Shown: one piece after another, positions 1 through 64,000 of the stretch
Numbering within the stretch: position 1 is the first letter of the stretch
Layout of the letters: each line of letters opens with the position of its first letter
DNA from: Clavibacter nebraskensis NCPPB 2581
Lineage (GTDB): Bacteria > Actinomycetota > Actinomycetes > Actinomycetales > Microbacteriaceae
Length of the DNA: 64,000 nt
Reading direction: 5' to 3'
Assembly (NCBI RefSeq): GCF_000355695.1
Contig: NC_020891.1
Coordinates: 1,116,001 to 1,180,000, forward strand
The notes under the pieces: model-generated
Databases searched by the model: none
What the model was told of the DNA's origin: nothing
Seen by the model: only the letters and a program-made list of their open reading frames with translations
Translations under genes and position numbers: made by a program

Positions 1-33
1 TCCGGCCCGGCTCGGGTGCACGGTTCGGCCCTG

Positions 34-39
34 TACCGT
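34..39 (+). promoter_or_regulatory. -10 element, leaderless promoter
   Basis: TACCGT lies six bases before the GTG at 46. It fits the TANNNT pattern seen before many genes here and implies a transcript that begins at or near the start codon. Confidence 0.5.
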
Positions 40-45
40 CGAGGG

Positions 46-768
46 GTGAGTGTGCACCTGGTCGGAGGCGGCCTGTCGGATGACGACACCCCCCTCCTCG
101 CGCGGTTCCTGTCCGAGGCGACGACGAGGGCGACCGCTGCCGCCCGGCTGGAGCCGGCCCGCATCGCCGTGGTCCTCGTCCACGACGGCCTGGGTGCCGA
201 GTGGTTCGACCAGTACGCCGCCGCGCTCCGTGCCGCGGGCGCCTGCGAGCCCGTCGCGGTGCTCGCGCCCGAGGGCGGATCCATCGAGGTCGCGCAGCTG
301 CAGGACGTGGACGGCATCGTCGTCGGCGGCGGGCTGACCCCCGCGTACCGCCAGGCGCTCGAGCCGGTGTTCGGCGAGATCCGCCGCCAGGTCACCGCCG
401 GGGTCCCGTACCTCGGCTTCTCCGCGGGCGCCGCGGTCGCCGCCGAGACCGCCATCGTCGGCGGCTGGCGCATCGGCGCCGTCGAGGTCGTGCAGGAGTC
501 CGCGAGCGAGGACCTCGACGAGGTCACCGTGGAGCAGGGCATCGGCCTCATCGACGTCGCGGTCGACGTGCACGCCGCCCAGTGGGGCACCCTCACCCGG
601 CTCATCGCAGCGACGGAGGCCGGGCTCGTCGAGGGCGGCGTCGCCATCGACGAGGGCACCGTGCTCATCGTCGGCGAGGGCCAGCTCGTCGTCGAGGGGC
701 GCGGCAGCGTCTGGTCCGTCATCGGCTCGGAGACCGGCGTCACCGTCAGCTCCGCCGGCGCTTCCTGA
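46..768 (+). CDS. Peptidase S51 / cyanophycinase-like hydrolase
   Basis: A 240-residue protein with a class I amidotransferase-like fold, of the peptidase S51 group (peptidase E and cyanophycinase relatives). No signal peptide or membrane segment is visible, so it is probably cytoplasmic. The nucleophile elbow GFSAGAA (residues 124-130, Ser126) has the GxSAGA form of S51 serine hydrolases and follows a VGGG turn at about 93-96. I chose the GTG at 46 over the in-frame GTG at 16 because a -10 hexamer sits six bases before 46. The stop lies ten bases before ung, so the two are probably cotranscribed. The substrate is unknown; dipeptidase or cyanophycinase activity is inference from the family. 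Confidence 0.75.
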   Translation: MSVHLVGGGLSDDDTPLLARFLSEATTRATAAARLEPARIAVVLVHDGLGAEWFDQYAAALRAAGACEPVAVLAPEGGSIEVAQLQDVDGIVVGGGLTPAYRQALEPVFGEIRRQVTAGVPYLGFSAGAAVAAETAIVGGWRIGAVEVVQESASEDLDEVTVEQGIGLIDVAVDVHAAQWGTLTRLIAATEAGLVEGGVAIDEGTVLIVGEGQLVVEGRGSVWSVIGSETGVTVSSAGAS

Positions 769-778
769 TCCACCGCCC

Positions 779-1465
779 GTGGCGCTGACCCTGCCCGAGC
801 TCGTCGAGCGCGGCCTCATGGACGCCGGCTGGGCCGACGTGCTCGCGCCCGTCGCCGACGACATCGCGCGCATGGGGGAGTGGCTGCGCGCCGAGGTCGC
901 CGCCGGCCGCCCCTATCTCCCGGCGGGCGACCGCGTGCTGCGGGCGTTCCAGCAGCCGCTGGCCGACGTGCGCGTGCTCATCGTCGGGCAGGACCCGTAC
1001 CCCACGCCCGGCCACCCCGTCGGCCTGTCCTTCTCGGTCGAGCCGGACGTGCGGCCCGTGCCGCGGAGCCTCGTCAACATCCACCGGGAGCTCCGGGACG
1101 ACCTCGGGATCCCGACGCCGGAGCACGGCGACCTCACCGCGTGGACCCGCAGCGGCGTGCTGCTCCTCAACCGCGTGCTCACGGTGCGGCCGGGCGCGCC
1201 CGCCTCGCACCGCGGGAAGGGCTGGGAGGCCGTGACGGAGTGCGCGATCCGCGGGCTGGCGGCGCGCGGCGGTCCGCTCGTCGCGATCCTCTGGGGCAAG
1301 GACGCGGGATCGCTCGCGCCGCTGCTCGCCCCCGTGCCGTCGATCACCTCCGTGCACCCGAGCCCGCTGTCGGCGTCGCGCGGGTTCTTCGGCTCGAGGC
1401 CGTTCAGCCGGGCGGACGCGCTCCTCGCCGAGCAGGGCGCGGATCCGGTCGACTGGCGGCTCTGA
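779..1465 (+). CDS. ung: Uracil-DNA glycosylase
   Basis: Removes uracil from DNA as the first step of base-excision repair. The 228-residue protein carries the family 1 hallmarks: water-activating loop GQDPYP (70-75, Asp72), the uracil-stacking Phe in LSFSV (about 85), the LLLN strand ending at Asn131, and the minor-groove loop HPSPLS (193-198, His193). Length is normal. The GTG start follows the upstream hydrolase stop by ten bases with no separate promoter visible, so it is probably the second gene of a two-gene transcript. Confidence 0.95.
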   Translation: MALTLPELVERGLMDAGWADVLAPVADDIARMGEWLRAEVAAGRPYLPAGDRVLRAFQQPLADVRVLIVGQDPYPTPGHPVGLSFSVEPDVRPVPRSLVNIHRELRDDLGIPTPEHGDLTAWTRSGVLLLNRVLTVRPGAPASHRGKGWEAVTECAIRGLAARGGPLVAILWGKDAGSLAPLLAPVPSITSVHPSPLSASRGFFGSRPFSRADALLAEQGADPVDWRL

Positions 1466-1506
1466 GACCGCATCGCGGGTTCCGGCCGAGCGCGCCGCGG
1501 TCCCCG

Positions 1507-1512
1507 TAGGAT
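1507..1512 (+). promoter_or_regulatory. -10 element, leaderless promoter
   Basis: TAGGAT is six bases before the ATG at 1519 of the acetyltransferase gene, the standard leaderless spacing in this window. Confidence 0.5.
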
Positions 1513-1518
1513 CGCGGC

Positions 1519-2208
1519 ATGCTCGAGGAGGAATACCAGCGGCGGCGCCGCCTGCCCGCCCACCTCCGGAAGCCCGCGCCGCCGCTGCCCGTCTTCTCCT
1601 ACGAGATCCGTCCCGCGACGATGTCCGACCTCCCGGACATCCGCGAGATCTACAACCACTACGTCATGAACAGCACCGTCACGTTCGACGAGACGCGCAT
1701 GACGCTCGCCCGGTGGCGCGGCCGCTTCAGCCAGCTCGAGCGCATGGGCATGCCGTTCCTGGTGGCTGTCTCGCCGTCGGGCCAGGTGCTCGGGTACGCG
1801 CTCGTGGAGCCGGTGGGGAACCGGCGGTCGTCGCGCACGACGGTGGAGGACTCGATCTACCTCGGCGCGGCGTCCACCGGCAAGGGCCTCGGGCGCGCGC
1901 TCCTGGTGCCGCTCGTCGACGCGTGCCGCGAGGCCGGGATCCGCGAGGTCATCGCCGTCATCGCGGATCAGGGCGCAGACGCCTCCATCCGGCTGCACGC
2001 GTCGCTCGGCTTCACGGAGAGCGGGCGGATGGGCCGGGTCGGCTGGAAGTTCGGGCGCTGGCTCGGCACGGTCACGATGCAGCTGACGCTCAAGCCGACG
2101 GCGCAGCCGGGCCGGTGGGCGCGCGCCATGCGGCCAGCGACGCCTGCCGCTGCCGCTCCCCGTCCCACCACGCCCGCTCCCGCTCCCGCCGCTCCTCCTT
2201 CGCGGTGA
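1519..2208 (+). CDS. GNAT-family N-acetyltransferase
   Basis: A 229-residue acetyltransferase resembling phosphinothricin-type GNAT enzymes, which acetylate amino groups of small molecules from acetyl-CoA. The domain spans roughly residues 28-190, with the acetyl-CoA pyrophosphate loop GKGLGRA at 121-127 and the late HASLGF motif near 160. After about residue 192 the protein becomes Ala/Pro-rich; this tail is encoded by bases that also encode, on the other strand, the end of the CPBP protease gene (overlap 2090-2208). The tail may be a readthrough of a lost earlier stop and is probably not catalytic. The substrate is unknown. Confidence 0.8.
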   Translation: MLEEEYQRRRRLPAHLRKPAPPLPVFSYEIRPATMSDLPDIREIYNHYVMNSTVTFDETRMTLARWRGRFSQLERMGMPFLVAVSPSGQVLGYALVEPVGNRRSSRTTVEDSIYLGAASTGKGLGRALLVPLVDACREAGIREVIAVIADQGADASIRLHASLGFTESGRMGRVGWKFGRWLGTVTMQLTLKPTAQPGRWARAMRPATPAAAAPRPTTPAPAPAAPPSR

Positions 2209-63208: not shown

Positions 63209-63241
63209 CCCCGACCCCGCGACGTCGGATGGCGTCCCGGC

Positions 63242-63272
63242 CGCGCCCCCTCCACCGCCGGACGGGGGCGCG
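63242..63272 (+). terminator. Terminator of the dapE-mannosyltransferase transcript
   Basis: CGCGCCCCC (63242-63250) and GGGGGCGCG (63264-63272) pair perfectly with a 13-base loop, 33 bases after the stop. Confidence 0.6.
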
Positions 63273-63321
63273 CGGGGCGTAGCACGGAGCCGCGCGTTCA
63301 TCGGGGGGCGTGTCCATGCGG

Positions 63322-63327
63322 GATAAT
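63322..63327 (+). promoter_or_regulatory. -10 element of the DUF3117 gene
   Basis: GATAAT is close to the sigma-70-type consensus, better than any other hexamer in the window. A 22-base leader with AAAGGGGA follows, so this gene is not leaderless and may be strongly expressed. Confidence 0.55.
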
Positions 63328-63355
63328 GGATGCACATCCACGAAAGGGGAGCCGA

Positions 63356-63529
63356 ATGGCAGCCATGAAGCCCAGGACCGGCGACGGACCGATGGAGGCC
63401 GTGAAGGAGGGCAGGCTCATCATCGTGCGCGTGCCCTTGGAGGGAGGCGGACGACTCGTCGTCTCCGTCAACGACGCCGAAGCGAAGGAGCTTCACGACG
63501 CCCTCGCCGCGGTGACCAGCGCGAGCTAG
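63356..63529 (+). CDS. DUF3117 small protein
   Basis: A 57-residue protein, full length for DUF3117, an actinobacterium-specific family of unknown function: MAAMKPRTGDGPMEAVKEGR at the start, then a two-stranded core RLVVSVNDAEAKEL. The ATG at 63356 follows AAAGGGGA by six bases. Strong -10 and terminator signals suggest an abundant product. No function can be assigned. Confidence 0.85.
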   Translation: MAAMKPRTGDGPMEAVKEGRLIIVRVPLEGGGRLVVSVNDAEAKELHDALAAVTSAS

Positions 63530-63548
63530 TCGAGACCGCACCACGCGC

Positions 63549-63583
63549 CACCGCCCGCCCCGTCGACGACGGGGCGGGCGGTG
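63549..63583. terminator. Perfect 16-bp terminator hairpin
   Basis: CACCGCCCGCCCCGTC (63549-63564) and its exact reverse complement (63568-63583) enclose GAC. It lies 19 bases after the DUF3117 stop and 52 bases from the stop of the convergent methyltransferase gene, so it probably serves both. Confidence 0.8.
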
Positions 63584-63635
63584 CTGTCTGCGGGGGTGCC
63601 CGTCCGGGGCTCGTGCGACGGGCGCGCCGCGGCGG

Positions 63636-64000
63636 TCAGCGCCCGGTCTTGGCGATCTGCAGCAGGCCGTCGCCCGCGGGCGAGAGCGACGCGACGACGG
63701 CGCCGGATCCCGCGGTCTCCTGCACGAGCGTGCGGAACGCCGCCGTCTGCGCGTCGCGCGCCGCGGGATTCTGCACCCGTCCTCGCCATAGGGCGTGCGG
63801 CACGAGCACGAGCCCGCCGGTGCGCGCGAGGCGCAGGCCGTGCTCGACGTACTCGATGACCTGGGCGGGATCCGCGTCCACGAGCACCAGGTCGTAGCTC
63901 GTGTCGCTCATCCGCGGCAGCACGTCGAGCGCGCGACCCGTGATGAGGCGCACGCGGTTGGCGGGCACCTCGGCGTCCGCGAGGATCTCGCGCGCGGCCT
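63636..64000 (-). CDS. O-methyltransferase family 3 protein, partial
   Basis: The last about 121 residues of a class I SAM-dependent O-methyltransferase (catechol/caffeoyl-CoA type). The frame stays open to the window edge, so the start and SAM-binding motifs lie beyond 64000. Visible are the Rossmann strand SYDLVLVDADPAQVIEYVEHGLRLAR, where the aspartates are normally metal ligands, and GGLVLVPHALWRGRV before the C-terminal strands. The third metal ligand Asn/Asp region appears altered. The substrate is unknown. Confidence 0.8.
   Translation of the reverse strand, partial: AAREILADAEVPANRVRLITGRALDVLPRMSDTSYDLVLVDADPAQVIEYVEHGLRLARTGGLVLVPHALWRGRVQNPAARDAQTAAFRTLVQETAGSGAVVASLSPAGDGLLQIAKTGR

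Follow-up and report, generated by a model that had tools for sequence, protein, structure and literature searches.

GGATCC as a highly iterated, HIP-like palindrome in Clavibacter nebraskensis

Introduction

The cause of highly iterated palindromes (HIPs) has been open since the 1990s. Here, we analysed the hexamer GGATCC in a stretch of 64,000 nucleotides of Clavibacter nebraskensis NCPPB 2581 (the window, at full length; G000:C1:1116001-1180000), in its one-contig source genome (G000; 3.06 Mb, G+C 73%) and in related genomes. We tentatively read GGATCC as a HIP-type element of the genus Clavibacter, recognised by a trans-acting factor that is most likely a DNA-modification or repair system. 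No earlier report of a GGATCC excess in Microbacteriaceae was found among the literature matches listed, with subscription papers mostly outside the search.

The closest described systems are found in cyanobacteria, in mycobacteriophages and in naturally transformable bacteria. Except for PMC5356067, the papers cited are drawn on in excerpt. Cyanobacterial HIP1 and its alternates are short palindromes at 0.5–2.5 per kb, each the most over-represented word, with the alternates occurring sporadically; the alternate HIP GGGATCCC of two Synechococcus contains GGATCC (PMC4390886). In subcluster B3 mycobacteriophages, GGATCC is found genome-wide at over four times expectation, with a ratio below one in other cluster B phages (PMC4841201). 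The DNA uptake sequences of Pasteurellaceae and Neisseriaceae are over-represented short words as well, there explained by molecular drive (PMC1939737).

A sequence-only reading of the window had likened GGATCC to HIP1. The measured features support this: it is a GC-rich palindrome, the top over-represented word, and its 1860 sites per Mb lie within the HIP range of about 500–2500 per Mb. It differs from cyanobacterial HIPs in three ways: in this genus the word is a core of six bases whose flanks are scarcely constrained, it occurs in Actinobacteria, and no cognate methyltransferase was found. The B3 excess concerns the same hexamer and is genome-wide too, but it belongs to phage genomes, its cause is left open in the cited part of that paper (PMC4841201), and no shared driver gene was shown. 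DNA uptake sequences are longer, non-palindromic and tied to an uptake system, unlike GGATCC.

Results

GGATCC abundance in the window and the genome

The sites counted in the window were as follows.

1..64000, no strand: 128 GGATCC palindromes across the whole window (2.0 per kb; genome density 1.86 per kb)
277..9872, no strand: 27 GGATCC sites in bases 1-10000 (direct count)

The 128 sites compare with a mean of 33.6 in 100 dinucleotide-preserving shuffles; the largest shuffle had 47, and none of the 100 reached 128. The whole genome held 5,698 sites. In a genome sample of 20 evenly spaced 20 kb stretches of G000 (400 kb, 13% of the genome), GGATCC was present in every stretch, at 0.95–2.75 per kb. 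The recount agreed exactly with the 27 sites in bases 1-10000 and the two sites in 47.9–54.9 kb counted in the sequence-only reading. The expectation given there (about 3 per 10 kb) was too low, as 5.2 per 10 kb are expected. CCATGG was scarce, as had been noted, with 3 copies in bases 1-10000 and 18 over the window.

In the 400 kb sample (strand-summed), 1592 GGATCC were found versus 397, 780 and 1144 expected at Markov orders 1, 3 and 4, and GGATCC was the top hexamer at each of these orders. The order-4 check had been proposed earlier, and GGATCC ranked first among hexamers with an expectation of at least 20, although an order-4 model trained on unmasked sequence absorbs part of the GGATCC signal. 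When the sites were masked before training, the expectations at orders 1–3 were 342, 275 and 260, an excess of 4.7–6.1-fold. For the 64 kb window alone, GGATCC ranked first at orders 1, 3 and 4 and fifth at order 2, where the words that outranked it were A/T-rich and each seen once.

A similar excess of all hexamers containing GATC had been named as an observation that would speak against a specific signal. It was not seen: relative to the order-1 expectation in the 400 kb sample, GGATCC reached 4.0, CGATCG 0.56, CGATCC 0.80 and the A/T-flanked hexamers 1.0–2.0. Hence, the element is not HIP1 itself (GCGATCGC), whose core CGATCG is depleted (662 vs 1173, strand-summed). As a side observation, AGGCCT and AGCGCT were well under order-4 expectation in G000 (0.34 and 0.46; L005-L024).

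Independence from reading frame and coding status

Genes were called with our own codon-usage caller, and the calls are not curated. In the coding sequences (CDSs) of the window, GGATCC occurred in all three codon registers (41, 39 and 31), as the sequence-only reading had claimed. A synonymous-codon shuffle of 420 genes (window plus 400 kb sample, 100 shuffles) gave 173 sites against 783 observed, a 4.5-fold excess of 65 standard deviations. By frame, 295, 280 and 208 sites were observed versus 24, 126 and 24. The next palindrome reached 1.9-fold. Where the amino-acid context permits GGATCC, the site was used in 35%, 67% and 38% of cases by frame (294, 280 and 207 sites, where pooled codon usage predicts 19, 119 and 16).

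The density was 2.00 per kb in genic and 1.93 per kb in intergenic sequence of the window and sample. The earlier remark that aspartate is almost always GAC outside the site also held: in the window plus sample, GAT made up 208 of 286 codons (73%) in G-GAY-CC versus 318 of 8270 (4%) elsewhere. Like a HIP, GGATCC is thus independent of reading frame and coding status. The excess in all frames and in intergenic sequence supports the earlier claim that the bias acts on DNA and not on protein.

Gains and losses on the tree

Fifteen genus genomes were aligned to a single region of at most 40 kb of G000 (14–39 kb covered each, 89–96% identity); G003 was dropped because only 7 kb aligned, and G002 was absent from the alignment. 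Changes were placed by parsimony on the tree of 16 genomes with a midpoint root, and the two root branches were left out.

Against a trinucleotide background, which mixes codon positions, gains were raised (73 vs 34.4 expected) and losses lowered (148 vs 232). The rise in gains was limited to the central A/T (G to A 30 vs 4.3, C to A 15 vs 2.0). Losses at the outer bases were lowered to 0.25–0.56.

A codon-matched test considered third codon positions only: synonymous changes there were compared with a background of the same codon followed by the same base. Here, gains were 6.2 times the background (32 vs 5.2) and losses 0.48 (39 vs 81.5). The gains, observed and expected, were GAC to GAT 17 and 2.3, GGC to GGA 8 and 0.8, GGG to GGA 5 and 1.2, and TCG to TCC 2 and 0.8. 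The losses by site position were 16 and 19.1 at the third base, 16 and 31.8 at the fourth, 1 and 0.2 at the fifth, and 6 and 30.4 at the sixth. Codon matching turned the central losses to 0.50–0.84. In the same test, the gain ratios of the 23 further palindromes with usable data ranged from 0.25 to 1.40, and random hexamers with enough data (173 of 700 drawn) had a mean of 1.03 (standard deviation 0.30, maximum 2.49). Among 154 common hexamers, none was lost at a lower rate than GGATCC.

Gains and losses of GGATCC were both present on most branches, and the raised gains, which comprise transitions as well as a transversion, run counter to the genome G+C. With the excess in all frames, and with synonymous gains up and losses down, the bias toward GGATCC acts on DNA. 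It is real, strong and apparently still acting.

A mutational hotspot, in which GG(G/C)TCC changes to GGATCC unusually often, would account for gains from GGGTCC and GGCTCC at about seven times the trinucleotide background, for outer gains that are not raised and for raised central losses. However, the suppressed outer-base losses (0.25–0.56; third-position loss of the last C, 6 vs 30.4) are not expected of a gain hotspot, and a single hotspot would need to promote three kinds of change alike (C to T, G to A, C to A). We regard it as quite improbable.

Gains up and losses down together would also be produced by weak selection for an abundant binding protein (a nucleoid, recombination or segregation factor) with many interchangeable sites. 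The sites in each 20 kb stretch agree with this, and the strength would be a few 2Ns units, judged from the gain ratio divided by the loss ratio (~13) or from the codon odds (44). However, the very unequal densities among congeners would require fast change of a core protein, a palindrome gives no direction, unlike Chi or KOPS, and we know of no GGATCC-binding protein. Such selection seems fairly unlikely to us.

Codon bias, G+C and the atp operon

The following features concern the atp operon.

48156..54896, + strand: atp operon (subunits a, c, b, delta, alpha, gamma, beta, epsilon; eight of eight genes match the expected Pfam families)
49680..49685, no strand: GGATCC site in the atp operon (site list)
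49808..49813, no strand: GGATCC site in the atp operon (site list)

The operon was GGATCC-poor, with two sites in 6543 bp of CDS (P = 0.001, or 0.015 versus the most biased fifth of genes). The most biased fifth predicts 7.9 sites, and the genome rate predicts ~10.9 in the 25 compatible contexts, two of which were used. When genes were grouped into fifths by codon bias, with the atp genes themselves as the reference, the GGATCC density fell from 2.60 to 1.21 per kb and the GAT share in G-GAY-CC from 79% to 53%; GGA before TCC stood at 57, 72, 72, 71 and 58%. The drop in density and GAT share with codon bias means that codon selection opposes GGATCC without abolishing the site.

The sequence-only reading had suggested strong codon choice as the reason for the deficit. 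Codon selection plausibly accounts for at least part of it. The lower G+C of the operon adds to the deficit. Across the genome sample and window, the GGATCC excess was 1.3–2.8-fold at 66–72% G+C (23 bins of 5 kb) and 4.4–5.5-fold above (69 bins). A weaker excess in lower-G+C regions would match the expectation for recent imports.

Distribution among genomes

All 18 searched Clavibacter genomes had 3,964–6,455 GGATCC sites (raw counts), compared to 139–3,253 in 19 other genomes of the family and 357–2,890 in 23 genomes of the order. In a survey of 299 family genomes (7 of them Clavibacter), five of the 292 others had more than 2,500 sites (G202, G164, G021, G189 and G290), in raw counts not scaled for genome size or G+C.

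Codon-shuffle ratios between genomes were obtained on samples with a cruder gene caller. They were 4.2 for G000, 3.6 for G202, 5.3 for G189, 2.2 for G164 and 2.9 for G021. The controls gave 1.07 (G145) and 0.59 (G252) in the genus of G202 and 0.82 (G263) in the genus of G164; the congeners of G021 were mildly raised (G126 1.67, G188 1.60). G189 held 2,680 sites in 1.9 Mb versus raw counts of 137–592 in the 1.3–1.7 Mb of its congeners. In each of the five high genomes with a codon-shuffle ratio, GGATCC ranked first among palindromes; it did so in no control genome of the five. For further genera, represented by one or a few loci each, noisy order-2 ratios ranged from 0 to 2.1 (e.g. Galbitalea 2.0, Agromyces 1.7, Curtobacterium 0.58, Salinibacterium 0.34). 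The trait is sporadic: G202 and G164 carry the excess, and their sampled congeners do not. The sharp contrast between congeners makes gene comparison a route to the cause of the trait.

The flank preference of G202 resembled that of G000, while G189 favours GY 5' and RC 3' of GGATCC. In G021, the word is AGGATCCG, a non-palindromic octamer that lies on either strand and in every frame; 100 kb contained 59 copies where 3.9 were expected (L219-L222, L041). G021 may be a separate case, with AGGATCCG possibly an uptake-like or alternate iterated word. Separately, G202 (L203-L208) carried repeated 8-mers around AGAATTGGCG, with 11–13 copies each versus 0.2–0.5 expected, perhaps a small dispersed repeat.

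Uptake-driven molecular drive, in which cells prefer GGATCC-bearing DNA at uptake and recombination spreads the site, would give an excess that is sporadic and in every frame, and the non-palindromic AGGATCCG on both strands fits it. Two species referred to as freshwater Actinobacteria are naturally transformable (PMC11577799). However, uptake sequences are described as non-palindromic (PMC1939737), and the genus motif in G000 is a palindrome of six bases, short for an uptake signal. This explanation is unlikely.

Methyltransferases, Vsr and restriction

PF01555 was matched in 18 of 18 genus genomes, and the seven genomes translated had the same orphan in each.

L033:9286-10281 (G000:438286-439281), − strand: conserved PF01555 orphan methyltransferase, convergent with a DEAD-box helicase gene (L033:7096-9270)

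PF00145 was matched in 7 of the 18 and PF02086 in 2 of the 18, in both cases not in G000. PF02384 was matched in eight of ten genus genomes screened, strongly in G006, G008, G010 and G013 and weakly in the other four. Outside the genus, the PF01555 orphan was found in G021 with one weak PF02384 match and in G202 with one PF02384 match. G164 had two PF01555 and three PF02384 matches, and G189 had two PF01555 matches unlike the orphan, two PF00145 and four PF02384.

The orphan, which is also given as G000:438355-439188, was rejected as the GGATCC enzyme, as it also occurs in genera without the excess and is most likely a TTAA enzyme. A TTAA orphan methyltransferase is present in 39 of 42 Arthrobacter genomes, where TTAA clusters are located between dnaA and a DNA polymerase III gene (PMC4752239). 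The genus orphan is likely the same enzyme; TTAA lies near dnaA here too, and since the Arthrobacter orphan targets TTAA, it is not the GGATCC factor. TTAA methylation was also found in Microbacteriaceae (PMC9516812), and Arthrobacter U41 has N6-methyladenine (m6A) at TTAA (PMC5356067). In five of ten genome starts, which carried the DnaA motif, all TTAA of the first 10 kb, numbering 2 to 5 per genome, lay at 1.5–2.2 kb; of the five starts without the motif, four had no TTAA in the first 10 kb, and G013 had 15. G000 had two, near dnaA. TTAA was depleted in five orphan-bearing genomes (G000 8 vs 20.7) and not in G189 (268 vs 180), where no orphan-like match was seen. This argument is weakened by AATT, which is equally depleted in G000 (27 vs 63.3). 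By analogy with Arthrobacter, the conserved orphan is probably a TTAA enzyme, in which case it does not explain GGATCC.

Further leads were followed. For GGATCC m6A in Arthrobacter U41 (PMC5356067), a plasmid D12-class methylase was located near the named locus number, with numbers not exactly matching; a profile screen gave no D12 match in G000, G021, G202, G164 and G189. Paper excerpts about methylation of GGATCC in Bacillus velezensis and in Sulfolobus acidocaldarius gave no lead. The weak PF02384 matches of G000, G001, G014, G011 and G189 look by eye like different accessory genes and were rejected as a shared enzyme. At ~2.77 Mb of G000 (L195:7096-11742), two divergent genes encode proteins that by eye look type IIG-like (989 aa) and methyltransferase-like (532 aa), probably an accessory defence locus.

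A classical HIP would have its cognate methyltransferase in a family outside the informative screen, or accessory enzymes of different families in turn. Additional methyltransferase-like genes of G000 lie at 2.31 and 2.77 Mb, and the search for MT-A70 (PF05063) carries no weight because the controls gave no match. Against this, only PF01555 was matched in all ten genus genomes screened for the four families; beside the orphan, G004 had one C5 match and G011 one weak PF02384 match. We judge a cognate enzyme of this kind improbable.

A restriction–modification origin would trace the excess to Vsr-type repair, to an enzyme like BamHI or to star activity of that enzyme at near-cognate sites. Among the 18 genus genomes, 11 gave a Vsr match; one of these contains a stop and another is a fragment. 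Vsr was not matched in G000 and six other genus genomes, all as GGATCC-rich. The Vsr signature, a vsr gene together with T to C gains, was not seen: G000 gave no match, and the changes with elevated gains on the tree were C to T, G to A and C to A; Vsr would not produce C to A changes. Star-site selection was rejected, as near-cognate sites showed no faster loss to other sequences. In 40 kb each, the Clavibacter phages CMP1 and CN1A kept 20 sites (9.7 expected) and 10 sites (15.0 expected), and restriction-target avoidance, with the site depleted in host or phages, was not seen. The sequence-only reading had considered a relic of a restriction system's mismatch repair; neither a Vsr relic nor a restriction relic is supported, since the genome shows excess rather than avoidance, the two phages are not purged of GGATCC and G000 has no Vsr match. 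Such an origin is very improbable. In CN1A (L194), CGATCG was absent in 40 kb versus 17.6–25.4 expected.

A trans-acting factor

Under the tentative reading of GGATCC as a HIP-type element, a trans-acting, sequence-specific factor would recognise the site anywhere in the chromosome. Mutations that create the site would be kept more often than alternatives, and mutations that destroy it would be removed more often. A marked site would bias mismatch repair or give a small benefit per site, as proposed for cyanobacterial HIPs, and the factor would be gained and lost by lineages. As individual sites turn over, no single GGATCC site need have a function. The bias is measurable as gains and losses on a tree.

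Several results weigh against this reading. None of the PF01555, PF00145, PF02086 and PF02384 methyltransferases was shared by the high genomes yet missing in their congeners, nor was any gene of another kind shown to follow the trait. The cyanobacterial genomes with highly over-represented sequences all have a putative methyltransferase able to methylate them, although the same paper lists strains without a recognizable CGATCG enzyme (PMC4390886, cited sections). Against the trinucleotide background, gains at outer bases were near background (0.9–1.3; 16 vs 15.0 and 10 vs 11.1), and central-base losses were raised 2.3–3.1-fold (47 vs 20.3 and 26 vs 8.4). Some of the loss backgrounds of the codon-matched test are thin (GAT to GAC 7/164; GGA to GGC 0/77). 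Its loss ratios were as low in two data-poor palindromes (ACCGGT 4 vs 8.5, AGCGCT 2 vs 7.4), and ratios near or under 0.48 also occurred among the comparison words, on few events. Counting all one-step changes, the 68 gains were fewer than the 105 losses, so the region may be slowly losing sites, or parsimony may be biased. The gain and loss test rests on one 40 kb region with a midpoint root.

A HIP without DNA methylation is possible, and we hold it with more reserve. Here, a mobile or rapidly switching factor would read GGATCC (or AGGATCCG) via another mark or by direct binding in several Actinobacteria, perhaps including the natural hosts of the B3 mycobacteriophages, and would pull chromosomes to the site against codon and GC bias. 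The case also casts doubt on the rule by which an over-represented palindrome is accompanied by a methyltransferase of its own.

Mycobacteriophages and the PAPS-reductase module

The B3 phage Akoma had 111 GGATCC in 68 kb versus 37.0 (order 1) or 55.5 (order 2) expected, and half of phage Daisy had 43 versus 18.1 or 26.5. The relatives of Akoma had 1 in 36 kb (B1), 12 in 67 kb (B2) and 9 in 70 kb (B4).

In Akoma, an annotated PAPS reductase is flanked by ParB-like genes and lies beside the terminase. No such reductase was annotated in the examined parts of the B1, B2 and B4 relatives, and it had no match in the loci examined, which for G000 cover ~18% of the genome. As a driver of GGATCC, this module was not supported. 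Four other reductase carriers (~40 kb each) showed no excess: Laroye (0 vs 19.3), prophi79-1 (7 vs 16.9), Bacillus 031MP004 (0 vs 7.1) and pAmyja1 (15 vs 17.5). The reductase is therefore not a sufficient cause. The ParB-like gp1 of Akoma aligns over 137 residues (51%) with part of a methyltransferase gene of phage-like character in G189 (L183); we take this for a common phage domain.

In the mycobacteriophages Zemanar, Hedgerow and Colbert (L267-L271), GC-only palindromes were nearly absent. The lowest three per phage (GCCGGC, CCGCGG, and GGCGCC or CGGCCG) were seen 0–1 times versus 42–110 expected.

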